Of a DNA stretch of 64,000 nt, positions 1-15,194 are shown piece by piece. Numbering within the stretch: position 1 is the stretch's first letter; the number at the start of each line of letters is the position of its first letter. The translations under genes and the position numbers were made by a program. Source of the DNA: Ruminococcaceae bacterium R-25 (GTDB taxonomy: Bacteria > Bacillota > Clostridia > Saccharofermentanales > Saccharofermentanaceae); assembly GCA_003149065.1 (NCBI GenBank), contig QGFZ01000002.1, positions 1 to 64,000 on the forward strand. The letters run 5' to 3'. Under the pieces are notes generated by a model. The model searched no databases, was not told the DNA's origin, and worked only from the letters and a program-made list of their open reading frames with translations.

Positions 1-215
1 AGCGGGGAACATCCCCGCTCTCGATGGACCCGGGTCTTACGACCAGCCCCAATCAGTTACCTGATCTTATTGATATTATATTCACCATGTATATCGATGT
101 CAATTAGAGTTAAGCCGAACTTAAAGCTCATTGGAATAACATTAAGGAAGTGTACTTTCTACAATAATTAATCAGCATGAAACACTCTGGATAAACACAG
201 GATTAGTATGTATTA
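1..215. other. Non-coding flank with a GC-rich hairpin
   Basis: No convincing gene is visible. Bases 1-19 form a perfect hairpin with 8-bp arms (AGCGGGGA / TCCCCGCT) around a 3-base loop, and a second small hairpin, GGTC-TTAC-GACC, lies near 33-44. The first has no U-tract on either side, so it is not a clear terminator. The rest, 60-215, is AT-rich and shows nothing recognisable. Confidence 0.4.
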
Positions 216-1394: not shown

Positions 1395-1740
1395 TCTAAT
1401 TTTCCTTTGCAAGTATAATTCTAAAGATGATGGCATTTTCAACATAATAAAGAATGAATTTTCACTCTTGACTAATCTCCGAGCTGCTACTATATTACAG
1501 GATTCCGGCGATAACTGATCTCATCTATAACATAAATACTATTATCAATATTCTGAATATGCAATTCTAACCATCCGCTCTTCTCATCTTTAATGAAACT
1601 AGTATATTCTCTAAACGCATTAACAAATCGTCATATGTCATAATATCAACAACGTTTATATTTGTCCTTTAATCAGTTCAAAATGTCTCCTTGAAATCAG
1701 TAGTTAATCTATTAATCTTTCAATCCTTTTTATTAACCAC
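1395..1740. other. Gene-free, apparently decayed stretch
   Basis: About 350 bases with no intact gene. On the minus strand an ATG near 1640 opens a short reading frame that stops after about 24 codons, while the neighbouring frame stays open for about 45 codons without a start. This is consistent with a decayed small gene that followed the duplicated leader at 1741-1906. No other signal is seen. Confidence 0.3.
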
Positions 1741-1906
1741 ATTGGTCTGCACCTCCATAAATCTTGCGCTCCTTGCTCACACTGATCCGAAATACTATAC
1801 TCACAAATAAGAGAGCACTCGATCAGGTAAACGCCTACTCGATGTTTTCTTATGCTATTTAGTTAGTTGCCCCGCGGTCGCCAAACTACACGGGCAACTT
1901 TTTATT
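1741..1906 (-). repeat. Copy A of a duplicated structured leader/terminator element
   Basis: Read on the minus strand, this stretch matches 7909-8075 over most of its length. Shared blocks are a hairpin with arms TTGCCCG/CGGGGCAA around a GTTTGGCGACC loop, then GAAAACATCG, then CGAGTGCTCTCTTATTTG, and a final GGAGGTGCAGACCAATG. The hairpin arms differ between the copies but stay paired (TTGCCTG/CAGGCAA in the other copy), which indicates a conserved RNA structure. The final block is a ribosome site followed by an ATG that opens a 12-codon frame here and a 2-codon frame (Met-Trp) in the other copy. In both copies it directly follows the 3' end of the secreted-protein gene family. Function unknown; it could be a terminator plus leader or an uncharacterised regulatory RNA. 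Confidence 0.6.
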
Positions 1907-1911
1907 TGTTT

Positions 1912-2130
1912 TTATGAACTTGTAAGATTTCCAGATACATCACAATACAAGTATACTGAGTAGTATTGCGAATCAGATCCATGTGTAGCAGTTCCATACG
2001 CCCTTGCATAAGCATTGCTTCCACTCTTTCCGGAACTAACACTTGGTGAACTGCTCCAACCTAATAATGGTGTTGGTGTAAACGTTGCACTTGCTGAAGT
2101 TGTTAAACAAGTTCTACCATCCGGATGTAA
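1912..2130 (-). pseudogene. 3' fragment of a second copy of the secreted-protein gene
   Basis: Conceptual translation of the minus strand gives about 72 residues clearly related to the C-terminus of the protein at 8085-8688. Shared phrases include GWSSSPS, a GSG/SGK-SGS run, AYGTA and the ending LYCDV-x-GNL. An in-frame TAA at 2131-2133 precedes the fragment and there is no start or signal peptide. It is therefore a truncated paralogue whose 5' two thirds are lost. It shows that the secreted-protein locus was once duplicated together with its downstream element. Confidence 0.75.
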
Positions 2131-2168
2131 TTAGCACAAAATATACTTATTATTTGTTTATTCTTGAT

Positions 2169-2336
2169 TCAAATACCGAAGTCTTCCAATCTTAACGATT
2201 TCATCTTGCACTTAACACATCCATAATCAGAATGTGTTCCAAGATAATAAAGCTTTACCACTTCATGTGGCGGACATTTCGGACTTTTCTCGTTAATAAC
2301 AATAGCATCAAATTCTTCTTCCTGCATTTTGTACAT
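2169..2336 (-). CDS. Small protein with CPPH...CxxC zinc-ribbon-like pattern
   Basis: A 55-residue frame starting at the ATG at 2336, with AAGGAGG 8 bases upstream. It contains Cys21-Pro-Pro-His24 and Cys40-x-x-Cys43, a spacing suitable for one zinc ion, and is otherwise charged with no membrane segment. It lies 19 bases after the 64-residue gene at 2356-2550, so the two probably share a transcript. I do not recognise the family. The strong ribosome site and the cysteine pattern support a real gene. Confidence 0.6.
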   Translation of the reverse strand: MYKMQEEEFDAIVINEKSPKCPPHEVVKLYYLGTHSDYGCVKCKMKSLRLEDFGI

Positions 2337-2355
2337 AATAAATCCTCCTTATTAT

Positions 2356-2550
2356 TTATAAATGTGCTAGACACTGGTCAATCAAATGCTGAAGATGATT
2401 TATTGTTGTCTCATCCCAGCATTCGTATCGTTTTTTGTATTCAATGCATGCCATAAAATGATCATATGCAGATCTGTAATTCTCCATGTCAAACTGAACT
2501 TGTCCACCTGTGTAAACATTGTCATAATCCTTAGGGTTATAAACTGTCAT
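2356..2550 (-). CDS. Small helical hypothetical protein
   Basis: Product of 64 residues, with AAGGGGGG upstream of the ATG at a normal distance. The middle, around FDMENYRSAYDHFMAC, and the C-terminal part look like amphipathic helices, a little like a single TPR-type hairpin. No signal peptide or membrane segment is present. It is followed closely by the 55-residue Cys/His protein and preceded by the HAD hydrolase gene. Function unknown. Confidence 0.55.
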   Translation of the reverse strand: MTVYNPKDYDNVYTGGQVQFDMENYRSAYDHFMACIEYKKRYECWDETTINHLQHLIDQCLAHL

Positions 2551-2660
2551 ATCAATTCCCCCCTTTTTGTTCTATCTTTTATCGTTTTACAGCCAACAAT
2601 CTTCACTTTATTATCTTTGTCATTAACAGTATAAATGAGATATCAGAATAAGAGCACCCA

Positions 2661-3605
2661 TTACTCCACTATATGACCCGGTACTTTTCCAGCAGAATCA
2701 ATTACCTGCTTTAAACAATGGTTATATATTCTCTCTGCAATCTGCTTAACATTCTCTTGTAACCAGATATATGCCGTAGTTCCTTTTTGATAATCAGCTT
2801 CAGCATACATATCGATTCTGCCATCCTTTATTAATTCATTAACCTGATTAAACGCTTTAACATCACCTTTTGGATAAATAGCAAAAGTCTTTCCGCCATA
2901 TTGTTTAAGGATTGAGAATACGGGAATGTCACTAGGGCCGTCAGCAATATAAATCATATTTTCAAATGGCACACGCCTTTTGTCTCTGTCTATTTTGCTG
3001 TTGACATCAATGTTGAATTTGTTTGATCCTTTATTAATTTCAAAAATAGCTCTGGTTTTAGATGTATTATCTATCATGTAACCTATCTGATTCAAAACGC
3101 TATCTTTCTTTTCTTTCTCATTAATTCGGATATCTAGATTCGAACGTATTGGTTCTTCTATAAACTCACAACCCCATATTCCATCTACAAAATCATTTAT
3201 CTTTGAACCTTTGATCATTTCGGTGATTCCGGTACTAACAATATAATGTTCTACTTGAATAGAGAAGTTTTTATACTTTTGCTCTACCTCGACAATATGT
3301 TTTAAATCGCGAAATATATCCGGTACTCCAGGATAAAAAGAAAGCTGCTCGCCGAATTCATTCAGTTTTTTATTATTTAGGCCTTCAAATATTCCCTGAT
3401 TAACACATGTAATTATATGATTTAAATATATGGTGTCTTTATTAACGCGTATTCCTCTTTGGGAATATTCGTCAGGTAATTCATTGACTTCTTTCCAAAA
3501 GGTCTTTGCATCAACACCATATGCATTGAATATTGGCTCTTGCATATAACCAGGGATGAGGGTCTTATCAAAATCCCATATAATTGCGATTACATTCTGT
3601 TCCAT
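2661..3605 (-). CDS. HAD-superfamily hydrolase/phosphatase
   Basis: A 314-residue cytoplasmic protein. Motif I is DFDKT at residues 11-15, with the nucleophile Asp11 and acid/base Asp13. A motif II-like STG follows IVSTGITEM near residue 124, and motif IV is ADGPSDIPVF near 225. These are the standard catalytic elements of HAD phosphohydrolases; the substrate cannot be told. AGGAG precedes the ATG. It is separated by about 100 bases from the ABC-exporter operon upstream on the same strand and may be co-transcribed. It differs from common Cof or phosphoserine phosphatases in its insert between motifs I and II. Confidence 0.8.
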   Translation of the reverse strand: MEQNVIAIIWDFDKTLIPGYMQEPIFNAYGVDAKTFWKEVNELPDEYSQRGIRVNKDTIYLNHIITCVNQGIFEGLNNKKLNEFGEQLSFYPGVPDIFRDLKHIVEVEQKYKNFSIQVEHYIVSTGITEMIKGSKINDFVDGIWGCEFIEEPIRSNLDIRINEKEKKDSVLNQIGYMIDNTSKTRAIFEINKGSNKFNIDVNSKIDRDKRRVPFENMIYIADGPSDIPVFSILKQYGGKTFAIYPKGDVKAFNQVNELIKDGRIDMYAEADYQKGTTAYIWLQENVKQIAERIYNHCLKQVIDSAGKVPGHIVE

Positions 3606-3706
3606 ATAATTGATCTCCTAATGTTCACAGGAATTTATCCTCTGCCAAGTATACCTTTTGTCCAATAATAGATATAAGTTGGTTTTAACAGTAAACTTAT
3701 TTCCAT

Positions 3707-4537
3707 TTATGTAATATCTTTCCTCTCAAAATACCTCTTTCCCATCAGATATACTGCTATCACCATAAAACAGGCGATTATTAGTCCACTGAGCGGATTA
3801 ATACCCTGTTCATGGTAATATGAACTCCTTACCCACATAGTAAAACTTCCCGGGAGGAACCAAGCTGTATAATACGCCGATAGGACATACAATCCGCTAG
3901 TAATTGCAAAGCTCGTTACTGGAGAAAGAATAAAACTCAAAAGCAATTGAACAAGACATATACCAATGGTGATCAACACAGGAATCAGTAAAGCTATAAT
4001 AATGAGATCTGTACTACTAACATATGACATGTTATATCCAAAAATAAACTTTATGAATTCGTCCGTGACACCAAGTGAAAATTCGGCACCATGAAATAAA
4101 GCAAACACAATGCATGATAATATAGCAACTACATAATAGAACAGAACCGACAATATGCACCAAAGCATTTTGGAAAGCCACCAGGAGGCCCTGGATCTTC
4201 CTGCCAACATCACATTAACCCCGTTATCAGTGAAATCTTTTTCAGCATAATAAGCAATGATATAGGAAATACCTATCTGAAAGACAAACCATAACAGTGG
4301 AATTTGAAAACTGGCTACAGGATCAAAACGATAAAACTCCATACCTTTCATCGCAAAAAGGTAATAGTCTACTATCGTTCCATTAGTCCACATAAAATTC
4401 AGTTCTTTTATCCCACTCATCGCATCAGAACACTGATATGCCGAAACAAAAGAAAAAATAATCGCAATCGCAAACATATAAGAGCGATTTATTAATCCTA
4501 ACTTGAAATCACGTCTCAAGAACAGTAACGTTTTCAT
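3707..4537 (-). CDS. ABC transporter permease-like membrane protein
   Basis: Product of 276 residues with about six hydrophobic segments (near 20-35, 75-95, 125-150, 175-210, 215-235 and 250-268). The layout is that of ABC-2 type permeases of peptide or bacteriocin exporters. It overlaps the ATPase gene by 29 bases, with its ribosome site (AGGAAGG) inside that gene, so the two are translationally coupled. The two permeases and one ATPase probably form one exporter or a peptide self-protection pump. Confidence 0.8.
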   Translation of the reverse strand: MKTLLFLRRDFKLGLINRSYMFAIAIIFSFVSAYQCSDAMSGIKELNFMWTNGTIVDYYLFAMKGMEFYRFDPVASFQIPLLWFVFQIGISYIIAYYAEKDFTDNGVNVMLAGRSRASWWLSKMLWCILSVLFYYVVAILSCIVFALFHGAEFSLGVTDEFIKFIFGYNMSYVSSTDLIIIALLIPVLITIGICLVQLLLSFILSPVTSFAITSGLYVLSAYYTAWFLPGSFTMWVRSSYYHEQGINPLSGLIIACFMVIAVYLMGKRYFERKDIT

Positions 4538-5183
4538 CAGTTAATTCCTTCCTGTCGATTAAGCATCCGTCTTTAATCTCGTATATGATGTCGCTTAAAA
4601 ACTCGAGTTCTTCTTTGTCATGACATGCGATTATAATTAACTTATCCCTGTCTCTTATCTCAAGGAGGACCTTTTTTATATTATGAGCACTTTCCTCATC
4701 AAGGGCATTAATAGGCTCATCTAGAATGATGATATCAGGCTCACCCATTATTGCATTAGCAATTCCTAGCTTTTGTTTCATTCCCAGAGAGTATTTACGG
4801 AATGTTCTCTTATCTTCGGGATCCAATCCTACTCTTTGCAACGCTTTCTTGATATCCTCATCAGAAATATTACTTGATAAACTGGCAAGAAGTTTCAGAT
4901 TCTTTGTGCCCGTATATTGCGGAAGGAAAGACGGATTCTCAATAAGGACACCAATGCTTTTCGGAAATTGAATATCTCTATGAAGTATTCTCCCATCTAT
5001 TGATACCGTTCCGGAATCTGCAATAATTAGCCCGCATATAGCTCTCATAAGCATGGTCTTACCTGAACCGTTTTTTCCTTTAAAACCATATATCTTTCCT
5101 GATGTCATAGTCATGGAAATATCATTAAGAATCACAGCACCTTTAATGGACTTGTTTAGCTTGTCGATTTTTATCTCACTCAT
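4509..5183 (-). CDS. ABC transporter ATP-binding protein
   Basis: Product of 224 residues from the ATG at 5183, which overlaps the upstream stop in an ATGA arrangement; a longer reading to 5213 is possible but less likely. Walker A is GKNGSGKT at 36-43, the signature motif is the variant SLGMKQ at 132-137, Walker B is IIILDEP at 151-157, and the switch His is 188. The SLGM signature and short length are typical of ATPases paired with ABC-2 permeases in bacteriocin immunity/export clusters. It lies between the two permease genes. Confidence 0.9.
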   Translation of the reverse strand: MSEIKIDKLNKSIKGAVILNDISMTMTSGKIYGFKGKNGSGKTMLMRAICGLIIADSGTVSIDGRILHRDIQFPKSIGVLIENPSFLPQYTGTKNLKLLASLSSNISDEDIKKALQRVGLDPEDKRTFRKYSLGMKQKLGIANAIMGEPDIIILDEPINALDEESAHNIKKVLLEIRDRDKLIIIACHDKEELEFLSDIIYEIKDGCLIDRKELTDENVTVLET

Positions 5184-5977
5184 AAGACGTCTCGCTTTCT
5201 TGAAACTACCCATATAATCAAGGAATTAATTATCATAATAACAACATAAGCAATCATCATCTGCCACCACAAGGTAACAACATATTGTTGCGGATTAAGC
5301 ATTCCTAAAACCGACCAATTGCCATATTCATATCCTTCCATGGTCATAGCTGTAATAATGTAAATAACCATCGGTGTCACAACAGCCGTGAAATGACTTT
5401 TTACTACCTTAGATAGGCTGAGAGATGTAAGTGCTATGACGCCTGCAAACAAGCTGTCGATAGCAATATAAATCAGGCAATAGACTGCAGGATATGTACT
5501 GTATATTTCTGCGAACAGATTTCTTTCCATTATTCCAATACTCAATCCTTCCAGTCTTTCAGGAATAAAATTGGGAAAGATTCCGGCTGCAATGAATAAA
5601 TTCAAACATAGAGGTATCGCCACACATACTACTGCAGAAAGAAATACAGCAACACTTTTAGAAATAGCATAATTCAATCTTGATACTTTAACACATATAT
5701 TCTTGTCATATCCGGTTTTCATATCCATATAAAGGGATCCACCATATGGAAGACATGCAAGAACTGGAAGCAGTATATAGAACATCATGTTATATGCAAA
5801 TTGATAGTTTGTACCTATCCATGCCTGAATAAGATACATTTGCTTTATATTATTGATACCAAATTGAAAATAATAAGCAATCAGGTCAGCAAAACATATT
5901 ACAATTCCTATAAAAAAACTTATAAAAAATGTTCTACTATGGAATGCCCGATATAACTCAAATCTTAATAATTTCAT
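5180..5977 (-). CDS. ABC-2 type permease-like membrane protein
   Basis: Product of 265 residues with about six membrane segments. It opens with the positively charged start MKLLRFELYRAF common in ABC-2 type permeases of lantibiotic-type pumps (DUF2705-like; the assignment is by appearance only). It overlaps the next gene by ATGA and the previous surface-protein gene by 4 bases, so the whole set is one polycistron. It is probably the second permease of the exporter. Confidence 0.8.
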   Translation of the reverse strand: MKLLRFELYRAFHSRTFFISFFIGIVICFADLIAYYFQFGINNIKQMYLIQAWIGTNYQFAYNMMFYILLPVLACLPYGGSLYMDMKTGYDKNICVKVSRLNYAISKSVAVFLSAVVCVAIPLCLNLFIAAGIFPNFIPERLEGLSIGIMERNLFAEIYSTYPAVYCLIYIAIDSLFAGVIALTSLSLSKVVKSHFTAVVTPMVIYIITAMTMEGYEYGNWSVLGMLNPQQYVVTLWWQMMIAYVVIMIINSLIIWVVSRKRDVL

Positions 5978-6513
5978 AATTCAAGCCTTATAGCAATCTT
6001 TTGTGGAGAAGAAGGTAACATATAATAATATTGATAATCCGTTAAATGCTCCCAAGTTTTATGCTTAAAACACAAATCTGAAATCACAGTAGCTAACCAT
6101 ATTTTTTGCGACTTGCCTGAATCAAGACTTTCGTTGTCAAATTTATTTATCACTGGAAGCAATTCAACATTCGGTGCACTTCCCCATACTGTTGATTTAA
6201 AGCCTAATCCAATATATATAATTATGTCGTTCCAGTTTATGCTTTGCTCGGTTTTATTTGTAACTTCAATACATATAGAGATCATTTTGCACTTGCCTTT
6301 ATATTCATTTTCGTAATTACATCCAAACCGCATATTAAATTCACTCAGTTCGTCAAGATGAGATTCTGCAAAAAACAGTTCTAGATCCCCACAATCTACA
6401 GTGTCCCCTATAGAATAGTATGTAATGATTGGAGGATTCTGGTTAATACTTATTATCCTCCCCAACCAAAACACAACCAAACATAACAATAGAAGCACAA
6501 TAGCTTTTTTCAT
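5974..6513 (-). CDS. Single-pass surface protein, Ig-like extracellular domain
   Basis: Product of 179 residues. An N-terminal hydrophobic segment at about 4-22 is followed by an extracellular beta-rich domain with ITYYSIGDTVDCGDLEL and VTNKTEQSINW. These phrases resemble the DUF4352/DUF5028-type domains found beside peptide exporters. Three Cys residues are in the mature part. It lies 2 bases after the 285-residue gene and overlaps the permease gene. Inferred to be an anchored accessory or immunity protein of the exporter; the family assignment is tentative. Confidence 0.65.
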   Translation of the reverse strand: MKKAIVLLLLCLVVFWLGRIISINQNPPIITYYSIGDTVDCGDLELFFAESHLDELSEFNMRFGCNYENEYKGKCKMISICIEVTNKTEQSINWNDIIIYIGLGFKSTVWGSAPNVELLPVINKFDNESLDSGKSQKIWLATVISDLCFKHKTWEHLTDYQYYYMLPSSPQKIAIRLEL

Positions 6514-6515
6514 GT

Positions 6516-7373
6516 TCAGAACACCTCCTCCAAGGTATCCATTGCAACAAACCTTTTATCAGTCAAAAGATCTATTTGCGTTATATTATCAAGACTAAGT
6601 GGCTCAAAACCCAAATACAATGAATAATCTTTTGAAAAATCAATAGTGTCTTCGGTAATCTCAAACCCCACAACACAATCTATGGTCTCACCAGCTTTAT
6701 TAAATGAATAAATGAAAAACTCATTTCTATCATCTTCGCCCGTATGTTGAGGATGATCAAAATAACAATTCAGTTCTACTTCCCCAGTTGTTTGGTTATT
6801 ACACATAACAAATACTCTTAAATCATTAATCCCTTTTTCAAACCTTGCACCTCCTAAAAATGTAATTTTGCATCGTAGAAATATATATTTTGTCTTGGGA
6901 TGCTTGCTTGTTGAATATTCAGATACATGCTGCTCCCAAAAATTCAAATACTCTTCATCGGTCATCCCAGACATACCGAAACTGTCTTGATATTCTGCAA
7001 ATTCAGGATAATCCTGTCTCATAGAATCATAATCAATGTATACCGTTAGACTATTAGGGTCAGGTATTTCTCCTTCATAAAAAAATTCGGCAGGATACTT
7101 TGTCTGTTTTGCAATATCAATATCATCTATTATTTCATAGCTTATTAATTCGTATTGCAATGTATTTGTTGGATCTATGAGAAGCCTACTCGATTTGTCA
7201 ATACGTTCATCATTAGCTTCATAGTCTTTCGATATTTCAATTCCACTGTTCGAAGTATTCCTTTCACGAAATCTTTCCATAGGAGATTTGCTATTGTTCT
7301 CAACAATAGCAACAAATATTATCACAGCTATCGCAAGTATTATAATTGTAAAAGTATCAGCTTTTTCCCTCAT
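6516..7373 (-). CDS. Single-pass surface protein of the exporter operon
   Basis: Product of 285 residues. The N-terminal membrane anchor is at about 8-24, followed by a hydrophilic linker and a C-terminal beta-rich domain that opens with LQYELISYEIIDDIDIA. It has the same general plan as the 179-residue neighbour (anchor plus beta domain) but is longer. It resembles the DUF5027-type proteins seen in Firmicutes peptide clusters, by impression only. It is followed with a 2-base gap by the next gene of the operon and preceded by a hairpin that separates it from the small secreted protein. Confidence 0.6.
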   Translation of the reverse strand: MREKADTFTIIILAIAVIIFVAIVENNSKSPMERFRERNTSNSGIEISKDYEANDERIDKSSRLLIDPTNTLQYELISYEIIDDIDIAKQTKYPAEFFYEGEIPDPNSLTVYIDYDSMRQDYPEFAEYQDSFGMSGMTDEEYLNFWEQHVSEYSTSKHPKTKYIFLRCKITFLGGARFEKGINDLRVFVMCNNQTTGEVELNCYFDHPQHTGEDDRNEFFIYSFNKAGETIDCVVGFEITEDTIDFSKDYSLYLGFEPLSLDNITQIDLLTDKRFVAMDTLEEVF

Positions 7374-7389
7374 TTAAACTCCGTAGAAA

Positions 7390-7430
7390 TAGCGATATCA
7401 CTTTGTAATAACTACAAAATGATATCGCTA
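7390..7430 (-). terminator. Internal hairpin between secreted-protein gene and exporter genes
   Basis: Perfect inverted repeat TAGCGATATCA / TGATATCGCTA (11 bp), with an inner TTTGTA/TACAAA pairing. On the minus strand it is followed by only ATTTCT, so it should be a weak terminator or an RNA-stabilising structure. This position, after a small abundant secreted product and before its transport genes, is a common way to lower downstream expression. Confidence 0.65.
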
Positions 7431-7448
7431 ATTGTCACAAATGCAAAA

Positions 7449-7847
7449 TCAAGAGTGGTTAGAATTTGGACTCCACTTTCCGTATGTTGTATCATATGCA
7501 AGAGATACTCTTTCGTACCTTAATCTGGCATTTGAATTTGTTGAAACAGAGTTGTAAATCCATATCTCTTGACCGCTATAAACCTTATAAGTGAGTGAGC
7601 AGTCCTGCCAACCTGAACTGCCATCGCCTTGTATGGTATATTTCAACGCAGGTCCTGACACAGTTCTAACATGTGCCCTAGACGAATCCGTTTTTTTCCT
7701 TGCGGATGTATGCCCTGATGTATTGACATTGTAAAATGAAAAATCAGATAAATCCGTGCTCGCTGCATTTACAGTTGTTGAATAACCGGCTATTCCGGAC
7801 ATTGCAATCACAATAGTAGCCAGTAATGATAAATACTTATTTTTCAT
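7449..7847 (-). CDS. Small secreted protein, DUF2712/bacteriocin-like
   Basis: Product of 132 residues from the ATG at 7847, which has GGAGG 8 bases upstream. A Sec signal peptide ends near AVNAAS (about residue 29). The mature part of about 100 residues is rich in Ser, Thr and Tyr with one Cys and ends in GKWSPNSNHS. The phrases ARKKTDSS and ARLRYERV with a WSP ending recall the DUF2712 family of small secreted proteins that sit beside ABC exporters. A toxin or signalling role is inferred from context only. It is preceded by the structured leader element and followed by a hairpin. Confidence 0.7.
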   Translation of the reverse strand: MKNKYLSLLATIVIAMSGIAGYSTTVNAASTDLSDFSFYNVNTSGHTSARKKTDSSRAHVRTVSGPALKYTIQGDGSSGWQDCSLTYKVYSGQEIWIYNSVSTNSNARLRYERVSLAYDTTYGKWSPNSNHS

Positions 7848-7908
7848 ATTATTCCTCCAGTGATTGTGATCATCATATAGTCCAAATCCTACGTGTATGT
7901 TTTTACCA

Positions 7909-8075
7909 CATTGGTCTGCACCTCCATAATTCAAGCAAACGTTTCCTTGTTTATCCTGATCAGAGATGCTATACTCACAAATAAGAGAGCACTCGATTAG
8001 GATACTCCTGCCCGATGTTTTCTTGTGTTCTAATAAGTTGCCTGTAGGTCGCCAAACTTCGCAGGCAATTTTTTT
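7909..8075 (-). promoter_or_regulatory. Copy B of the duplicated structured leader/terminator element
   Basis: Lies between the secreted-protein gene and the DUF2712-like gene, and is closely similar to 1741-1906. On the minus strand it starts with a hairpin TTGCCTG/CAGGCAA. On the plus strand the same hairpin is followed by TTTTTTT, so it could also terminate plus-strand transcripts. Further conserved blocks end with GGAGGTGCAGACCAATG-TGG-TAA, a ribosome site with a Met-Trp mini-frame. The conserved length (about 165 bases), compensating changes in the hairpin and conserved loop sequences suggest a regulatory RNA. I could not match it to a riboswitch class I know. Confidence 0.55.
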
Positions 8076-8084
8076 GCAATCTTT

Positions 8085-8688
8085 TTATGCTTTCGTGCTT
8101 AGATTTCCATTTACATCACAATATAAGTATAATTCATAAGCATATGATGAACTTCCGTTTACTGCTGTTCCATAAGCTTTTGCATATGCTTTGCTTCCCT
8201 TTTTGCCTGAACCGGCACTCGGAGAACTGCTCCATCCCGATGCCGGGCTAGGAGTATAAGTAGCAGTGGCGGATGTAGTTGAACAAGTAGATCCATTATA
8301 ATAGTATTCTCCATCTACTTGAACAGTAAAAATAATGAAACCGGCACTACTACGATAGTTTTGAACAGCATATCCTGATGCAGTGCTGCGGGTAACATTG
8401 GTTTTATATACAGTCGTAGTAATCACATATTCATTTTCATAATCAATCGTCAACTCAAAAGAGACTACTTCGTCTGAATTATGATCCTCATTTGAATATG
8501 CATCTTCGGTGTTACAATAGTGTGTGTCCACAACATTTTGCAATTCTTCTTCGCTATGAACTTCATTAGCCTCGCAGAATTCAATAAGGTCGAAAGCATC
8601 TGTCCTATTAATGTCAGATGGACTATATGCCCCCCCCTCCAAAACAAACAAACGTTCCGCACAAGATGACAGATAATAGTTTTTCCAT
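8085..8688 (-). pseudogene. Secreted-protein gene, frame interrupted at a G8 tract in the signal peptide
   Basis: Translation from the ATG at 8688 (GGGAGG 7 bases upstream) gives a good signal peptide, MEKLLSVILCGTFVCFGGG, and then stops at TAG right after a run of eight G (8630-8637, as C on the plus strand). The other frame is open from there to 8085 (about 185 residues). With seven G the two parts join exactly, giving ...FGGGAYSPSD. The mature part has an acidic helical N-terminus, a Ser/Thr/Tyr-rich middle and the C-terminus LYCDVNGNLSTKA. Either this is a phase-variable OFF state or slippage-dependent expression, or the tract was miscounted in sequencing. A decayed paralogue lies at 1912-2130. 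Function unknown. Confidence 0.7.
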
Positions 8689-8703
8689 GTTGTTACCTCC
8701 CTG

Positions 8704-9282
8704 TTAATCAGTTTTTACAACCATTGGCTGATCTGCATATATTCCGTCAGCATTGGGCCCAAAATTAAAAGTTATCCAAAAGATGAAAGCTATTATGGCA
8801 ATTAAAATCAAAGACAAAACAATCAGGATTACATTACGAATTTTCCTTTGCCTCAATATTTCTTTTTGAACCGCATAATTCTTCTCATTGTTATTGATTT
8901 TCTCGATTAATTCCTTATTTTGCAGACGCAGCTCTTTAATCAATTCACTTTGTTTCTTACTGTATTCATCACGATTTATTGTTAGTGATTCATTTATTAT
9001 TTCTTGTCCAGTAACGAGATTATCCACACTATCGGATATTCTACCAAGAACATCTTGTTTCGGTTCATCAGATGATAAATCGATATCATCTTTGTCATTA
9101 AGCAACTCTTCCTCAGTAACACCTATAAGCTTAATAACCTTCTCAAGTTCTTCCGCACACGGCTTCGAACTATTCTGTTCCCACCTCACTATAGTACGCA
9201 CACTTACACCAAGGATGTTAGCTAAATCCTTTTGAGAATACTTATTCTTCTCTCTAAACTGTCTGATTCTCAATCCGGACAA
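8704..9282 (-). CDS. Membrane-anchored XRE-family transcription regulator
   Basis: Product of 192 residues from a TTG start with AAGGAG 6-7 bases upstream. Residues 4-58 are an HTH_3/XRE domain (SQKDLANILGVSVRTIVRWE). Residues about 105-148 are a charged coiled coil, 150-172 a membrane helix, and about 20 residues remain outside. XRE regulators with a C-terminal membrane anchor can sense an envelope or peptide signal. It is the first gene of the secreted-protein/exporter operon, 15 bases before the interrupted gene, and its own promoter region carries a perfect palindrome, so autoregulation is likely. Confidence 0.85.
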   Translation of the reverse strand: MSGLRIRQFREKNKYSQKDLANILGVSVRTIVRWEQNSSKPCAEELEKVIKLIGVTEEELLNDKDDIDLSSDEPKQDVLGRISDSVDNLVTGQEIINESLTINRDEYSKKQSELIKELRLQNKELIEKINNNEKNYAVQKEILRQRKIRNVILIVLSLILIAIIAFIFWITFNFGPNADGIYADQPMVVKTD

Positions 9283-9672
9283 GATAATTCTCCTTTTCGG
9301 GTGTGCTATTGATTTTAGTCTATGTTACGAGAAAGTGGTTTTCAAGTGACACTTTGCCTGTCACATATATGACAGGTTAAAATAAGAACTCCATTGTTTT
9401 CATGAGGTTTATGCACTTTTCTTATGTGACAAGCTATTTTGACATCAATTTATAATATTAGTCTTAATATCAAGTTTTACGGGGAAATTATACTTAAACA
9501 TGGCTAAACATATCCGTCACCGCATAATCATAAATACATCCTTCTTATTGATACTTTGTTGACCTTTCCACATTTTTCTCTCACTATAATTTCAATATCA
9601 AGGCTTTCACTATATATATCGTTAGTCATATTATTCCCGACGTCTGTATTGAACACCGGGGATTCTTCTCGT
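9283..9672. other. Promoter region of the XRE operon and end of the mobile element
   Basis: A gene-free stretch of 390 bases. It contains the palindromic operator at 9357-9376 and further GTGACA half-sites at about 9346-9351 and 9426-9431. A possible minus-strand promoter (TTGAAA, 17 bases, TAGACT) lies between the palindrome and the TTG start. Bases 9480-9672 show no gene or repeat I can recognise; the left end of the mobilizable element probably lies here. Confidence 0.45.
9357..9376. promoter_or_regulatory. Palindromic operator upstream of the XRE regulator
   Basis: Perfect inverted repeat CCTGTCA / TGACAGG with a 6-base spacer, CATATA. Similar half-sites (GTGACA/TGTCAC) recur on both sides within 80 bases. 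This fits binding of a dimeric XRE repressor to its own promoter. Confidence 0.65.
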
Positions 9673-11064
9673 TTAACGCACATGTGGATTGAATCTAAAC
9701 TTTGTAAACTCTTTTCTCTGTCGATGTTTCTCTTCCTCTCTGATACGCTGTTGTACAAGGTTGATCGATTGTACTCGAATCATAGGATCTGTCTGTATCA
9801 ATTCTTCACACATATGAACTTCCTTATACAGTTCCCGCAGAACCTTTGTCTTCTCCTGAGCGACCAGCCTATAAAGATTGGCATATGCCGGCACACCCTT
9901 TCTGTCCCAATAACGCTGTTGTTTACGGTCTTCATCTCTAGCCTTAGCAATATCAGATATCCTTTTCCGTAGCGCTTCCTTAAAGGCCTCGACCTGTTCC
10001 GGAGTGTCAAGCATATACTTCCTGCAAAATGACTGAAGCTCGCAGAATCGTTCCAGCTTTCGGATATCCTTTATCAACTGAGGAGAGTATTCACGGTACT
10101 TACGCTTATACTTGCATGATCTGAGCTGTAAACAGTGATAAGTGATGATCACGCGGAATCCTGCTTTCTCAAGCCTTCTGGTATATCTGTTAATCTTCTC
10201 CATCGAAGGCTGTTCTTCCAGTTCTCTGAACGGATCGGCAGCGATAACGGTATTCTCGATAACCCTCTTGTAAAAGTCATCCAGTCCGTAACCCGGGCCC
10301 AAAGAATCTAACCTGACGCATATGTCGGAATTAGGGAGCATGAGCTTCGGATGCTTAAGTTCTTTGCCTGTCTCGGTCACAAGGATAAACTTATAACCCA
10401 TATCCTTCATTTTGGAAGCAAACTCTTTCACGGTACGGCTGCTCTTAATGGTATCGTCTATGTCCTTCATGACCTTTCCTCTGAGTGTCGGATTACCGTC
10501 CCTGAGGTCTTTCCATTCACGATAATTCTTGCGCTTGATCTGATCGCTCTTTTTGGCACTCTCGATCGATAATCCATGTGCCCTGCAGATCGCGTCAGAA
10601 ACGTCTCTCATGCGCCGGATGTCTTCTTTAGTGTCGTGATACTTATAACCGTCCCGGAACGATACAGAGTTCAAACAGAAGTGATTATGGTAGTGCCCTG
10701 TGTTAAGGTGTGTCGCTACTACAACCTCAAACCTGTCACCCCACAATTCTTGTGCAAGTTCTACTCCGATCTTATGGGCGGTATCTGCATCAACTTCACC
10801 CTCGCGGAAAGACTGATAACCATGATATGCTACCCGGCCGCCCTCCTTTCCCCAGAGCTGCTTTGTCTGAATAAACTGTTTTGCTGCGATCTCAGGTTCA
10901 CAGTTGATCCCTGTCACATACATCATCTGCTCAGTCTTGTCAGCATCCGTGATATATGACATTACCTGCTGCATATCTCTCGGGGTTGTCTTCTCCGGGT
11001 TCTCGATATACTTAACGACTGAGGATACACTGCCTTTTACTGCCCACATATTCGTTACAGCCAT
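9673..11064 (-). CDS. Relaxase/mobilization nuclease (MOBP type)
   Basis: Product of 463 residues. The relaxase core is at residues 1-200. It contains the strand YHGYQSF near 80-86 and the metal-binding histidines H119, H124 and H126 in HLNTGHYHNHF; the nicking Tyr is probably among the N-terminal tyrosines. The C-terminal half is basic and helical. Relaxases nick oriT and pilot the strand through a conjugation pore. The mobC gene lies directly upstream with a 1-base gap. No type IV secretion or coupling-protein genes are present, so the element would depend on a helper. Confidence 0.92.
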   Translation of the reverse strand: MAVTNMWAVKGSVSSVVKYIENPEKTTPRDMQQVMSYITDADKTEQMMYVTGINCEPEIAAKQFIQTKQLWGKEGGRVAYHGYQSFREGEVDADTAHKIGVELAQELWGDRFEVVVATHLNTGHYHNHFCLNSVSFRDGYKYHDTKEDIRRMRDVSDAICRAHGLSIESAKKSDQIKRKNYREWKDLRDGNPTLRGKVMKDIDDTIKSSRTVKEFASKMKDMGYKFILVTETGKELKHPKLMLPNSDICVRLDSLGPGYGLDDFYKRVIENTVIAADPFRELEEQPSMEKINRYTRRLEKAGFRVIITYHCLQLRSCKYKRKYREYSPQLIKDIRKLERFCELQSFCRKYMLDTPEQVEAFKEALRKRISDIAKARDEDRKQQRYWDRKGVPAYANLYRLVAQEKTKVLRELYKEVHMCEELIQTDPMIRVQSINLVQQRIREEEKHRQRKEFTKFRFNPHVR

Positions 11065-11065
11065 A

Positions 11066-11389
11066 TCACTTCACCACCTTCCTGAAGGTATCGCACAACA
11101 TGTCACATACCTCATGGATCTCGTTTTGGTTTCTTTCAAGCTCAAGTCCGTGTACTATTCCCAAAACATTCAGCTTGCGAACAAGCTGGTTGAGATTACT
11201 GCCGACACGTCTGACCTCGAAGATCAGTGACACATAATCCGCATCCGGGGGAGCGTTGATCTGGGCACCAAGAAGAACCACCCTGCAGAACTTCTCTCTT
11301 GGCATTTTTGCCTTCTTCACCTTGTCATTTAGTGACCGCCATTCATCTTCGGTGAAGCGGATGACGACGGCTTTGTTTCTTCTGCTCAT
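11066..11389 (-). CDS. mobC: MobC-like relaxosome accessory protein
   Basis: Product of 107 residues. The N-terminus (KAVVIRFTEDEWRSLNDKVKKAKMP) is a ribbon-helix-helix-like DNA-binding start. The C-terminal half, with RRVGSNLNQLVRKLN, is the hallmark of the MobC family, which helps open oriT for the relaxase. It lies directly downstream of the putative oriT and directly upstream of the relaxase. Confidence 0.9.
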   Translation of the reverse strand: MSRRNKAVVIRFTEDEWRSLNDKVKKAKMPREKFCRVVLLGAQINAPPDADYVSLIFEVRRVGSNLNQLVRKLNVLGIVHGLELERNQNEIHEVCDMLCDTFRKVVK

Positions 11390-11399
11390 AGATTTATAT

Positions 11400-11510
11400 A
11401 CCTCGTGTTTTCATAAAAATAGCGCCCGGCCAGGGCGCATTAGGGGTCTCAGGGTTCTCCCTGAAATGTGCTTTTTGATATCAAAAAGCGTAGCCTGCTA
11501 CAAATTAAGA
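11400..11510. other. Putative oriT with a cluster of inverted repeats
   Basis: Four inverted repeats lie in 80 bases just upstream of mobC: GCGCCC/GGGCGC (11422-11438), TCAGGG/CCCTGA around TTCT (11449-11464), the perfect 18-base palindrome CTTTTTGATATCAAAAAG (11471-11488), and GTAGC/GCTAC (11490-11501). Position next to mobC/relaxase and the dense hairpins fit an origin of transfer. The nick position is not determined. Bases 11511-11660 contain no gene. Confidence 0.6.
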
Positions 11511-11662
11511 CAATTCTATGAGAACGTTTTCAGGAGATAGTCGGGAACCCGGGAGATGCGTAAGATCTCCAACATTCTCATTAGTTAGAGGCTTCCTAAA
11601 AAAGAAGAAACGAACACCAGACGTTTCTAATTCTGGTGTCGTTATCCTTCAGGCACGATTCT

Positions 11663-12010
11663 TCAATCTTCTTCCTGATTTGAAACAACTTCGAACTTTG
11701 ATAAGAAAACATATCCGCTTGTACTTGGCTCAAAGTACAGCTGCAAGGTTGATCCGATAGGAATTTTACCCATGGCAATGAGCTGTTCTTTTCTGAAAGG
11801 CTGGACTAAAGCAATAATCTTCCTTCCGTCCTCAAGATCAAAGAACGCTCTCATCGGTCTGCTGTTCCCGCTCACCTTCGATCTGGTTGCCCATGCCTTA
11901 AGCATGAGTGTTCCGAGAAACGCTCCGCTCTCTTTGTTGACCCTATAGTCATCGGTATCGATCTTCTTATCATAAAGTTCCTGCTGTGTATAAACTTTTG
12001 TATTTTCCAT
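11663..12010 (-). CDS. Mobile-element hypothetical protein
   Basis: Product of 115 residues with GGAGG 9 bases before the ATG. No membrane or signal segment. The phrases VNKESGAFLGTLMLKAW and GSTLQLYFEPSTSGYVFL suggest a small beta-barrel fold, possibly a DNA-binding OB-like protein. This is a weak impression. It lies between the putative oriT and the ribbon-helix-helix gene, so it is cargo or an accessory gene of the mobilizable element. Confidence 0.6.
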   Translation of the reverse strand: MENTKVYTQQELYDKKIDTDDYRVNKESGAFLGTLMLKAWATRSKVSGNSRPMRAFFDLEDGRKIIALVQPFRKEQLIAMGKIPIGSTLQLYFEPSTSGYVFLSKFEVVSNQEED

Positions 12011-12043
12011 TGATTTTTCCTCCTGGTTTGTTTGGAAATAATA

Positions 12044-12094
12044 AAGGAGAGTTACGTTCCTACTTATAGTAGAAACTACACTCTCCTTCTTTTT
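12044..12094. terminator. Hairpin upstream of the 115-residue gene
   Basis: Inverted repeat AAGGAGAGT / ACTCTCCTT with an inner GTAGTTTCTAC-type pairing. On the plus strand it is followed by CTTTTT, and on the minus strand by TATTATTT. It could terminate transcripts from either side, or hold the AAGGAG sequence in a stem. A second AT-rich palindrome (CTAGATA / TATCTAG) lies at about 12103-12126. Confidence 0.5.
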
Positions 12095-12123
12095 GGTTGC
12101 TTGCTAGATAGCTATATAGATAT

Positions 12124-12264
12124 CTAGCTAGTTAAATAATAAATAAGAACTTGTTTGTTGCTTATAGCGGATCTAACAGCTATAATTACGGTGTTGGAAA
12201 TATATGACTGTCCTTGAGCTGTTGCAGCAGCACGTGGGGCAGTTATTTTTTTGTCATCACTCAT
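12124..12264 (-). CDS. Possible 46-residue protein overlapping the ribbon-helix-helix gene
   Basis: An ATG at 12264 overlaps the stop of the upstream gene by 8 bases (AATGAGTGA), with GGGAG about 9 bases before it. The frame runs 46 codons to a TAG. The product is small and basic in the centre with a mildly hydrophobic C-terminal half. The overlap and ribosome site favour translation, but codon evidence is thin and I recognise no family. Confidence 0.35.
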   Translation of the reverse strand: MSDDKKITAPRAAATAQGQSYISNTVIIAVRSAISNKQVLIYYLTS

Positions 12265-12592
12265 TTGAAGTATCTCCCTTCATACCATTAAGTGTCGTGA
12301 CCAGGAGTTCCACAGTCGCCTTAAGTTCCGGATCTATCTTCTTGCCGGATCTGATAAGCTTCCCGAGTTCCGTAGCAAGATATTCCGTCTGTTCAATTAT
12401 CAGCTTATACAGTCTTGAATTCGGAACGACCACGATCTCCTGGTTCCTCAAACGCTTCAGGATATAGTCCTGCTTCTTCATACCGGAAAGCAGTGCTGCT
12501 CTGTGGACCTCATCTGCCTCCTGCGGCGTTACTCTGAATCCCACATTTACATTCCTGTATCTGTTGTGATCTTTATTTTCTTTCTGTTTCAT
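12257..12592 (-). CDS. Ribbon-helix-helix mobilization/regulatory protein
   Basis: Product of 111 residues. Residues about 13-50 (NVNVGFRVTPQEADEVHRAA...DYILKRL) are typical of ribbon-helix-helix proteins in mobilizable elements, where they bind oriT or regulate the int/xis region. The C-terminal half is a helical tail. It ends just before a possible 46-residue gene and follows the integrase stop by 2 bases, so it is co-transcribed with xis and int. Confidence 0.75.
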   Translation of the reverse strand: MKQKENKDHNRYRNVNVGFRVTPQEADEVHRAALLSGMKKQDYILKRLRNQEIVVVPNSRLYKLIIEQTEYLATELGKLIRSGKKIDPELKATVELLVTTLNGMKGDTSNE

Positions 12593-12594
12593 GC

Positions 12595-13668
12595 TCAGTA
12601 CTCCTTTACACTATTAAGTTTGTTAGCAAGTTCTCCTTGGACTGACGGGAAAAGGTGCGCATATCGGAAGGTTATATCAATGCTCTTATGTCCGACTCTT
12701 GCTGCAATCGCTACCGGCGTGAATCCCATATCGATAAGAAGACTTACATGACTGTGTCTTATATCGTGTATACGAATCCGCTTTACACCTGCAACTGCAC
12801 ATCCTCTTTTCATCTCATGGAGAAGAAAATACTTTGATACCGGGAAAATCCTCTCATTACCCTTTATACCGTCAATAAATTGCAGATACTCCTTCATCTC
12901 TTCGCAAAGAAAGTCCGGCATCGTTACCGTGCGGTTGCTGTTGGCCGTCTTAGGTGTTGTAATAAGCTCCTTGCCATTGATCTTCTGATACGTTTTTGAT
13001 ATCTTCACAGTCTTGGCTTCTAAGTCGAAATCGTCAGGTGTGAGCGCCAGGAGTTCCCCTTCACGCATCCCTGTCCAGTAAAGCATCTCAAACGCGTAAT
13101 AGGACATTGGTTTATCCATGATTGCTTGCGAGAATCTCGTATACTCATCTTTCGTCCAAAAAAGCATTTCCCTACCACCTTCTTTTCCCATGTTTCCTGC
13201 GATTGCTGCCGGATTCTTGGGAAGGTGATAAAACCTCACTGCGAAGTTAAACGATGCTGAAAGCTGATTGTGAATCGTCTTGAGAAACACTGAAGATAAC
13301 GGCTTGCCGTTAGCTCCCTCCTTTCTCATAATCTCCCTTTGCCAGTTAGCTACATCAATCGGCTCGATCTCATTAAGTTTTCGCTTCCCGAAGTACGGTA
13401 ATATGTGACACCTGAAAATATTCTTTTTCGTTATGATGCTATCTTCCTTCAAGTGAGGACTGATAGCATTCATATAGTTTTCTACGAATGTTTCATAGCG
13501 CATATCTGATTCCCCGCTGTCCGACTTAAGAAATTCAGATTCCCAATCAAGTGCTTGTCTCCTGGTCTTAAAACCTCTCTTACACTTCTGTTTGCGGTTA
13601 CCATAAATATCGTCGTAATAAACCATTGAGAACCATTTTCCAGTACGCTTGTCTATGTGTACTGACAT
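12595..13668 (-). CDS. int: Tyrosine recombinase/integrase
   Basis: Product of 357 residues from the ATG at 13668, where AAGGAGG is 8 bases upstream; the longer reading to 13704 overlaps the excisionase gene and lacks a ribosome site. The N-terminal region holds an AP2/arm-type DNA-binding segment (TGKWFSMVYYDDIYGN) and a SAM-like core-binding domain. The catalytic residues are all visible: Arg202 in GMREGELL, His301 and Arg304 in HDIRH, His327 in VGHKS, and Tyr336 in FRYAH. It integrates and excises the element. The transcript runs away from guaA. Confidence 0.93.
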   Translation of the reverse strand: MSVHIDKRTGKWFSMVYYDDIYGNRKQKCKRGFKTRRQALDWESEFLKSDSGESDMRYETFVENYMNAISPHLKEDSIITKKNIFRCHILPYFGKRKLNEIEPIDVANWQREIMRKEGANGKPLSSVFLKTIHNQLSASFNFAVRFYHLPKNPAAIAGNMGKEGGREMLFWTKDEYTRFSQAIMDKPMSYYAFEMLYWTGMREGELLALTPDDFDLEAKTVKISKTYQKINGKELITTPKTANSNRTVTMPDFLCEEMKEYLQFIDGIKGNERIFPVSKYFLLHEMKRGCAVAGVKRIRIHDIRHSHVSLLIDMGFTPVAIAARVGHKSIDITFRYAHLFPSVQGELANKLNSVKEY

Positions 13669-13669
13669 A

Positions 13670-13912
13670 TCAAATCCCTCCTTCTGATGCAATCTGACCA
13701 TCACCGGTAAACTCCATTCCGGATATGCCGTATCTGGCTTCGAAATAGCGTCTGTTTACTCTGCCGGTCTGTACAACGAAACCCTTTTTCTGAAGTTCCT
13801 TGTTAAGATCTCTTATGATCTTGTAACCTGTCTGAACGGATACATTTAATACCTGAGCGACTTCGTCTGCTCTGATAAAGATGTTGTTGTTTGTACTTAC
13901 ATTAGTTAACAT
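13670..13912 (-). CDS. Excisionase-like helix-turn-helix protein
   Basis: Product of 80 residues. FIRADEVAQVLNVSVQTGYKIIRDLNKEL is a MerR/excisionase-type winged helix start used by Xis-like directionality factors. It lies immediately upstream of the integrase (1-base gap) and should control excision together with it. The C-terminus is Gly-rich and unstructured. Confidence 0.8.
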   Translation of the reverse strand: MLTNVSTNNNIFIRADEVAQVLNVSVQTGYKIIRDLNKELQKKGFVVQTGRVNRRYFEARYGISGMEFTGDGQIASEGGI

Positions 13913-13943
13913 TTTTATTGCTCCTTATAATTGTTGTGATTTC

Positions 13944-14015
13944 AAGCATTTTCATGCTTCGGCCTAAGAGTTACTGATGTGTTTTCCGCTATGTCGGCGG
14001 TCTTGGTATGGTCAT
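13944..14015 (-). promoter_or_regulatory. Leader of xis-int: 8-codon peptide and hairpins
   Basis: On the minus strand a strong ribosome site, GGAGG, lies 8 bases before an ATG at 14015 that encodes only 8 residues (MTIPRPPT, stop at 13989). The end of this frame lies inside a hairpin CCGC/GCGG, and a second hairpin AAGCAT/ATGCTT (13944-13959) follows, about 30 bases before the excisionase start. This resembles a translational attenuator in which ribosome stalling at the Pro-Arg-Pro-Pro codons would change the RNA fold. Function is inferred only. Confidence 0.4.
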
Positions 14016-14245
14016 GTGTGATACCTCCTTGTTGTATTTCTGTAAAACCTTAAGACTCAAAAAAAGAACTACTTGTCTCTTCACCCTTAAGGAATGAGAG
14101 AGGGCAAAATTAAACCCTAAACTCAAAAGAAGTCTGAAATTCGACATAAACAGTCTGAAAATCAACACAGATAGCGAATGCTGTAGTTTTGCTCCACCTT
14201 CTCCAGATTAAAAAAGTTAAAACCGTAAGGCTCTCGCATTGCTGA

Positions 14246-14341
14246 CTACGAAAACATGGGAAGAGTATTGGAGAAACTCACCCCGGTGACTAATACGCCC
14301 CGCTGCTCATCACAGAAGTATCCCCACTTTGTATCTGTCAT
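14246..14341 (-). CDS. Doubtful 31-residue reading frame
   Basis: An ATG at 14341 preceded by GGGAGG (only 2 bases away) opens 31 codons. The composition is protein-like (MTDTKWGYFCDEQRG...). An overlapping frame upstream (about 33 codons from an ATG near 14433, ending DDRYKVGILL) also looks coding. Either these are remnants of a longer gene broken by frameshifts or the base composition of a structured region misleads. Low confidence. Confidence 0.25.
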   Translation of the reverse strand: MTDTKWGYFCDEQRGVLVTGVSFSNTLPMFS

Positions 14342-14545
14342 CGCCTCCCTCAGGTTGCAACCCTGATTCTGACTCATCCGCCTTATCGCTCTCGATCTTT
14401 CGACCGGTCATCGCGGGTTCGGAGTCAACTTGGCTTGGTATTTTAACGCCGATACAAGTGAACGTACCTCACGGTTTGCTATTCATTTGTCAATGTTCGC
14501 GAAGGATACTTATTCCTTCCTCTGAATCACCAACAAAGAGAGCAA

Positions 14546-14858
14546 TAAAAAAGCACCGTAGTAGCTGAGTAGATGGATCACATCTTCCAGTTCTATACAG
14601 TGCTTTACAGCTTTTCAGTCCTTGTAGAGGATCCTGTTCTGTTCGCACAAACTGAAAAGGAAAATGTCCTTCTCTCAACTATTACGGTGCTTGGTAGTCT
14701 TTACAGTCCTAATGGAGGGCCTGCTCCGCTTACTCGGTTTAAGTTGGTGGTTCTATTCTCTTGTAATATAGCTTTGTTTTAGATCGTTGAGCTCGATTCC
14801 ACAACTTTGCTCCGATGACTATCAATCCCTATGAGGAATATCTGTCGATCTGATGTTG
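14546..14858 (-). ncRNA. Candidate structured RNA of the mobile element
   Basis: A near-consensus promoter at 14866-14894 would start transcription near 14858. The transcript contains no sizeable frame and ends with TTTTTT (about 14546-14551) after a stem of 18 positions, CTCAGCTACTACGGTGCT (14552-14569), pairing with 14674-14691 with one mismatch and one G-U pair. Inside are two tandem related segments of about 41 bases, 14596-14636 and 14683-14723, sharing CTC-x-A-x-x-AGGACTG-x-AAAG and AGCAC-x-GTA. The repeats and closing stem support a folded RNA. I could not match it to 6S, tmRNA or RNase P RNA. Confidence 0.5.
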
Positions 14859-14865
14859 CAAGTGC

Positions 14866-14894
14866 ATATTATCATCGAACATTTGTTCTGTCAA
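14866..14894 (-). promoter_or_regulatory. Promoter with LexA-like (SOS) box in its spacer
   Basis: Minus strand: -35 TTGACA (14889-14894), a 17-base spacer, -10 TAATAT (14866-14871). The spacer contains GAACAAATGTTC (14877-14888), an inverted repeat that matches the Gram-positive LexA/DinR consensus CGAAC-N4-GTTCG except for one outer base. LexA bound there would block the promoter until DNA damage. It points toward the candidate RNA and then toward xis-int. Confidence 0.65.
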
Positions 14895-15032
14895 TATCTA
14901 TTTCATCCATTTTATGTAGTTTGCTTTTTCAGTCCGTATAAACGGTCTATACCATCTCAGCACCGTAGGTTTTATATTCATTTTTCAAGATCCGACCGAC
15001 AGAGGATCTTGTGTCCTGATTTATACAGACAA

Positions 15033-15066
15033 CAAAAAACACTGCCGATCTTGTAAACCGGCAGTG
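15033..15066 (-). terminator. Terminator downstream of guaA
   Basis: Minus strand: CACTGCCG (15059-15066) pairs with CGGCAGTG (15040-15047), followed by TTTTTTG. A strong intrinsic terminator about 130 bases after the guaA stop. It separates guaA from the mobile element. Confidence 0.85.
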
Positions 15067-15194
15067 CTTGTATAATCTGTTAACCTGTTGCTACTTGGAA
15101 TAATTGGTTATTCTTCCCTATTATCCAAATCTTATCCGAGATGAACTCAAATCTCTGAAATGCCTTATTTTATTGGCTTTCAGAACCTCGTCAA

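Follow-up and report, generated by a model that had tools for sequence, protein, structure and literature searches.

A candidate poly-G phase switch in the signal peptide of a secreted protein encoded beside a membrane regulator in gut Clostridia

A secreted-protein gene in two reading frames

The window, meaning the whole stretch of 64,000 nucleotides that was analyzed, carries on its minus strand a gene for an XRE-type regulator (HTH_3; 8704..9282), then a gene for a secreted protein, a conserved two-hairpin leader element that we call R1 (7943..8075), and a set of cargo genes. The first cargo gene (7449..7847) encodes a small protein in which a signal peptide is recognizable by eye, and two more (5974-6513 and 6516-7373) encode proteins with an N-terminal hydrophobic segment; none of the three has a convincing family. 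They are followed by an ABC exporter (3707..5977) made up of an ATPase (4509-5213) and, by eye, two membrane proteins. The ATPase is nearest to the lantibiotic-protection type, below the curated cut-off. On the same strand there are also a second copy of R1 (1769..1904) and the remnant of a second secreted-protein gene (1915..2124), which holds the C-terminal 69 or so amino acids alone. We considered the six G at 2558-2563 as the mark of a second switched copy and rejected them: they precede another ORF in the manner of a Shine-Dalgarno sequence, and of the second copy no more than a C-terminal remnant is left. A DUF3800-XI RNA (Rfam RF02975, 60.4 bits) lies at 4-50.

The secreted-protein gene is split between a start frame (8623..8688) and a body (8085..8627). 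A strong Shine-Dalgarno sequence, cagGGAGGtaacaacATG, precedes the ATG at 8688, with the stop codon of the upstream gene 15 nt away. The first 17 codons from this ATG resemble a signal peptide and are followed, inside the ORF, by exactly eight G (8630..8637; ORF nucleotides 52-59), where the hydrophobic core of the signal peptide ends. A TAG stands directly 3' of the run, and the peptide read from the ATG has 21 residues, MEKLLSVILCGTFVCFGGGGI. The body lies in the other frame and codes for 180 amino acids and a stop, with no internal stop. In homologues with seven G at the tract, start and body share one frame. The first-pass annotation had described the signal peptide from 8688 and a body of 185 residues as separate frames that seven G would join, which holds except for the length; the body has 180 to 188 residues depending on the choice of its start. 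A TTG at 8651, within the signal peptide, was rejected as an alternative start, since the ATG at 8688 has the Shine-Dalgarno sequence and the signal peptide of the relatives.

The 3.07-Mb genome contains six runs of at least seven G, both strands counted, and two of these are G8. Scaled up to the genome, a first-order Markov model of the window predicts about 69 runs of at least seven G and about 14 of G8. As the observed numbers are far below this expectation, the tract is not explained by chance.

Tract length and frame in relatives

Homologues of the body were found in 13 of 85 genomes of the same genus, at 20 places. Three of the 20 are truncated copies (L013, L014, and L017) and were excluded from alignment A1 and the tree. 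One sister genus has homologues at 11 places in seven genomes. In an order-wide search of 188 genomes, the family was present in two of 30 genera. The nine named loci, eight full matches and one partial, come from MAGs labeled Clostridiales or Clostridia bacterium, Mageeibacillus sp., and Saccharofermentans sp., with a buffalo or sheep source (rumen, reticulum, omasum, or rectum) given in five of the nine titles. The genus of the window, one of uncultured gut and rumen Clostridia, is probably Saccharofermentans. Neither the window body nor alignment A2 found a relative among viral contigs; plasmids searched with the window DNA and with the L015 body gave no match, nor did phages searched with the L015 body.

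We read the 5' ends of the 17 intact homologues of the genus, the window included. A run of six to eight G starting at nucleotides 49-52 of the ORF is present in nine. Three of these run carriers are in frame, each with seven G (L010, L015, and L018). The other six are out of frame, with eight G in the window, L003, L008, and L009, and six G in L004 and L016. L006 (GGAGGA) and L020 (four G) have the same site with no long run and are in frame, as are the six further homologues, which have ordinary signal peptides. In the sister genus 10 of the 11 places were read, G102:C54 being left out for want of a locus; all 10 are in frame and none has six or more consecutive G. A second frame break was found in none of these 27 homologues, 17 from the genus and 10 from the sister genus. 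The first-pass annotation had weighed phase variation against an assembly error, in which relatives would share a fixed length of seven, and against a pseudogene, in which relatives would show many other frame breaks. Six, seven, and eight G all occur at one conserved site, the differing lengths flip the frame, and no other breaks accompany them, a combination that supports phase variation.

On the tree the run appears in three places: in the window, in the pair L003 and L004, and in a group of eight rows that includes L006, L015, and L020. The position of the window is unsure because its branch is long (1.12 for the protein). The sister pair differs in tract length, with eight G in L003 and six in L004.

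Within the genus, six of nine genes with the run are out of frame versus none of eight without it (p 0.009); with the sister genus added, the comparison is six of nine versus none of 18 (p 0.0003). When two near-identical pairs are merged, five of seven carriers are out of frame and the values are p 0.007 for the genus and 0.0004 with the sister genus, all of these p values being a guide only, as the homologue rows are related. Eleven genes share the GG motif, and 12 of the 124 glycine codons in their bodies are GGG, so codon habit does not account for the two successive GGG that most of them have at one place.

Homopolymers are error-prone, and if the lengths were sequencing or assembly miscounts, the window and every out-of-frame relative would in truth carry an in-frame run. 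That would take six errors in nine loci, some gaining a base (G8) and some losing one (G6), and would involve five assemblies besides that of the window. As a control, we collected the exact G7 runs of six other run-bearing genomes, 41 in total, of which 30 had loci and 28 were placed; the 11 runs lacking a locus were excluded together with L132 and L138, which are near contig edges. Two of the 28 are members of the family. Among the 26 placed outside it, 12 are in frame in long continuous ORFs and none is clearly frame-broken, the three unclear cases being a ribosome site, a gene end, and a terminator-like stretch. Seven G in coding genes of the same assemblies are thus in frame where this can be judged. 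Also counting against a miscount, 24 of 101 rows with runs of at least eight G are labeled in frame, by a permissive label. We regard a miscount at all six loci as very improbable; one in the window assembly alone is possible.

The secreted protein might also be in the course of being lost, with the run merely the point at which its frame broke. The remnant in the window, truncated copies of the gene in genomes G003 and G023, and the long branch of the window row fit such decay. However, no second frame break or stop is found in the six out-of-frame genes, the break is always on the same run, and in-frame relatives retain the run. L008 and L009, both G8 and out of frame, differ at 24 nucleotides and three residues (dN 0.0079, dS 0.203; dN/dS about 0.04), and a dN this low against dS indicates that these two out-of-frame genes are under purifying selection, maintained and not decaying. 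There is in our judgment very little chance that these are plain pseudogenes. The window row keeps 16 of 18 nearly invariant columns, counted without the near duplicates L009 and L018, and its two losses equal those of the worst other rows, L010 and L012. It is possible that constraint on the window lineage has relaxed, with a recent loss of function in the window gene.

Runs of G can cause transcriptional slippage. If slippage of polymerase or ribosome gave some full-length protein from alleles with eight or six G, the length in the DNA would hardly matter, and such programmed recoding would account equally well for the conserved bodies of the out-of-frame alleles. Recoding alone leaves the lengths of six, seven, and eight at one site unexplained. 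Moreover, random drift in length would leave two thirds of alleles OFF, and the observed mix of frames is near this expectation, at six of nine here and six of seven in agrB (see below). We consider recoding improbable.

The gene is, in our view, likely to be a contingency (phase-variable) gene switched by the poly-G run of its signal peptide, a reading drawn from comparison of the sequences. Slipped-strand mispairing at replication would alter the run by one base. With seven G, the full signal peptide is in frame with the body and the protein would be exported (ON). With six or eight, the frame read from the start codon is cut short at 20-21 residues (at 68 in one relative), so that the protein would be lost (OFF), which would be the state of the window assembly. 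The changes in length would be frequent and reversible. The switch may decide whether the regulator can sense or be held, and in this way the expression of the adjacent secreted-peptide clusters. Seven or eight G is short for a contingency tract by the measure of a Neisseria survey, which uses at least nine (PMC5953494); Campylobacter work uses at least seven (PMC4965091).

The regulator, its proposed secreted partner, and the leader

The regulator of the window has, by eye, one transmembrane helix and an outer tail of about 20 residues. Its output domain, when scanned, is of the HTH_3/XRE type and not a CadC-like winged HTH. An HTH regulator gene lies immediately upstream on the same strand in all 17 intact loci of the genus, and a regulator is encoded within about 0.7 kb of the secreted-protein gene in all 10 sister-genus loci read. 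The three truncated copies gave no regulator hit. By eye, the regulators have a single membrane helix and no folded outer domain; their tails mostly extend about 20-30 residues after the helix, at most about 20-40, and a few sister-genus regulators have almost no tail after the membrane helix.

The cargo, in turn, differs among the six named loci read. It consists either of small signal-peptide proteins followed by MacB-like or unclassified membrane proteins, or of large secreted proteins, one of which carries a CBM2. Since the gene keeps to the regulator and the cargo varies, we think, from this gene order, that the secreted protein is the extracellular partner of the upstream HTH-membrane regulator. 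The earlier description of the product as the surface-exposed part of a peptide/export cluster can be refined to a gene that neighbors a regulator with an HTH and a membrane anchor and that fronts variable cargo.

Structure prediction used the window and eight named loci (L052-L059). The window model (pLDDT 85, pTM 0.81) is a compact alpha+beta fold of two helices and eight strands. Pfam and NCBIfam contain no family for the body, the best chance hit being Asp2 (E 0.095). A sequence-profile search of the PDB gave a best E of 0.53, and Foldseek against the PDB gave a best E of 0.069, with none at or below 0.001. The best fold match is the Listeria hypothetical protein lmo2686 (4k15), with Z 7.5 and 8.9 for two models, and is not a confident one. 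Compared with VtrC, the window model scored Z 6.3 (93 aligned, 3.7 Å) and the less certain L052 model (pTM 0.54) Z 3.2 (77 aligned, 4.4 Å). The match to VtrC is weak and was not reproduced by the second, less certain model, and we set homology by fold aside; a lipocalin-like fold, as in partners of the VtrA/VtrC type, is possible for the secreted protein.

Phase-variable genes usually encode surface factors. The switch could therefore be real and yet act on an ordinary secreted effector, adhesin, or immunity factor in place of a regulator's partner, a reading to which the lack of a confident fold match lends some room. It is at odds with the pairing of gene and regulator at every intact genus locus while the cargo varies between the loci read. 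We take an ordinary effector to be possible and lean against it.

A covariance model of the R1 leader element, which in the window lies between the secreted-protein gene and the cargo, found 11 strong copies in six genomes and two weak ones (L106-L118). Nine of the strong copies were in the alignment from which the model was built and two are new finds. Eight strong copies are directly behind run-bearing genes, that is, behind eight of the nine, L016 being the exception; at the strong threshold there is none behind the eight genus genes without the run. The other three strong copies are about 4-6 kb further on, and two of them precede a secreted-looking ORF. Two-sided changes in three of 24 pairs suggest, and do not prove, a structure for R1. 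A search of window positions 1-16500 against Rfam, with E up to 1, gave no match at the leader.

By eye, the leader of the window also contains a mini-ORF, ATG-TGG-TAA (7903..7911, minus strand), behind GGAGGTGCAGACCA, with similar ones in several relatives. Secreted-protein genes are also preceded by tiny ORFs, among them Met-Trp-stop and Met-Cys-stop, that follow a strong ribosome site such as GGAGGTGCAGACC. The tiny leader ORF is perhaps a form of leader-peptide control.

The window contains two copies, about 6.17 kb apart, of the leader together with the 3' end of the secreted-protein gene (1769-2124 and 7943-8131), as if recombination had inserted the cargo there. Positions 9673-13912 encode a relaxase, a NikA/MobC-like protein, and a phage-type integrase, with a guaA-like ORF (15195-16736, by eye) not far away. 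L056 and L057 likewise have relatives of the integrase close by. An integrated mobilizable element may carry the cluster.

agrB, other G runs of the genus, and known systems

We surveyed runs of at least eight G, as well as R1 and agrB, in 83 of the 85 genus genomes (about 200 Mb). There are 104 distinct runs of at least eight G. Four are in the signal peptide of the secreted protein, where an even spread would place 0.005, though two of these four are in close homologues. The other 100 runs were classified by a simple rule in 101 rows (L097 and L204 are the same run). Some are ribosome sites before starts, some are in frame within coding sequence, and many are neither. Most of them were rejected as switches, as they lie 3-14 nt before a start codon, are in frame, or belong to neither class. 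The rule labels 16 of the 101 rows as split. Six of these are in agrB and two look convincing (L191 and L202); the remaining eight were rejected by eye as non-genes or ribosome sites.

The six agrB runs split the membrane protein of Agr quorum sensing. In genome G040 the pieces on either side of a G8 (L096/L149; G040:C7, 14887-14894) match positions 3-88 and 114-183 of the AgrB profile. With the first agrB piece as query, the 83 genomes gave 30 places in 25 genomes, and seven of the 30 have a run of at least seven G at apparently the same site (L096/L149, L150, L152, L154, L158, L159, and L166). G025 has seven G and is in frame. G034, G040, G057, and G058 have eight and G068 and G069 nine, and all six are out of frame. 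The agrB genes of G057 and G058 are identical over the fetched stretch, leaving six distinct genes among the seven run carriers. In each of the six split genes, 106-125 open codons lie between a start codon and the run. At 14 of the 30 places the matched stretch contains stops, which are taken to lie 5' of the agrB genes, as the query began 47 codons before the first Met.

An AgrD-like short ORF stands behind agrB in all seven run carriers (by eye), followed by secreted-looking ORFs. The leader motif GACC(A/C)ATGTG(G/C), like that of the window locus, lies behind four of the seven and not behind the other three. On this sequence pattern, agrB is probably a second phase-variable signaling gene of the genus. 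With the pattern present in another gene, a one-off error becomes a much less likely account of the window.

Both modules, the XRE regulator with its proposed secreted partner and the unrelated AgrBD quorum-sensing pair, front clusters of secreted proteins, and in each a run of six to nine G is found at a fixed place in one gene. We suggest that poly-G phase variation in this genus targets the input of signaling, so that cells would draw lots over sensing and over secreted peptides. This falls a little short of what we would call probable. If true, it would mean a hard-wired division of labor, or an evasion of cheating or attack, in the gut.

Several other runs of the census deserve mention. 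One of at least eight G is found some 10 nt past the stop codon of the family gene L019. L202 is a run of eight C (G034:C30, 5849-5856) in the signal-peptide region of a gene for a large secreted protein, at least 333 codons long, whose start and body are in different frames; the body is like the CBM2 protein found as cargo elsewhere (by eye). L191 (G016:C12, 69438-69445) is a G8 between frames of about 200 and at least 332 codons of what resembles a large surface protein. Runs of seven to nine G also act as Shine-Dalgarno sequences just before the starts of a number of genes, in the window's own genome and in the genus. Their length could tune translation too.

Homopolymer phase variation is best documented for host-adapted pathogens and their surface factors, and the run of Neisseria pilC is located in the signal-peptide region. 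As here, pilC has a poly-G run in the frame of an exported protein, its length setting on or off, and the survey lists it as known to be phase-variable, with G(9-20) (PMC5953494). In contrast, pilC acts on the pili of Gram-negative pathogens and has longer tracts, whereas here six to eight G lie in a regulator's neighbor in gut Clostridia. Listeria inlA is a surface-protein gene of a Firmicute, with a short run at its 5' end in which a one-base change truncates the product. A7 is in frame, A6 is out of frame (truncated after eight amino acids), and A2GA4 is in frame and stable (PMC2831843). This interrupted in-frame allele parallels L006, with GGAGGA at the site. The inlA run is of A and not G, and an internalin is not a gene paired with a regulator.

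In another Firmicute, Group A Streptococcus, a run of eight or seven C leads to the loss and restoration of a regulatory gene, mga, for which reversion is reported to have been seen only in infected animals (PMC11868660). There the regulator itself is changed, not a secreted companion. In gene order the locus resembles VtrA/VtrC and ToxR/ToxS, in which the gene of a membrane-anchored HTH regulator precedes that of an exported partner (PMC9214523). The term 'phase variation' is absent from the text of that paper. Here, however, the HTH is of the XRE type and not CadC-like, the outer tail is short, and the fold similarity to VtrC is weak and unstable. With no folded outer domain and another type of HTH, we do not file the window system in the VtrA/VtrC family.

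A literature search pairing Saccharofermentans with phase variation found no paper in the library searched. The mechanism is of a known kind; what seems to be new is its target gene family, its coupling to signaling modules, and the group of organisms. Several species of these uncultured gut and rumen Clostridia share the candidate switch, which acts on a gene linked to a membrane regulator, and genes of this sort will be annotated as pseudogenes or as two small ORFs.
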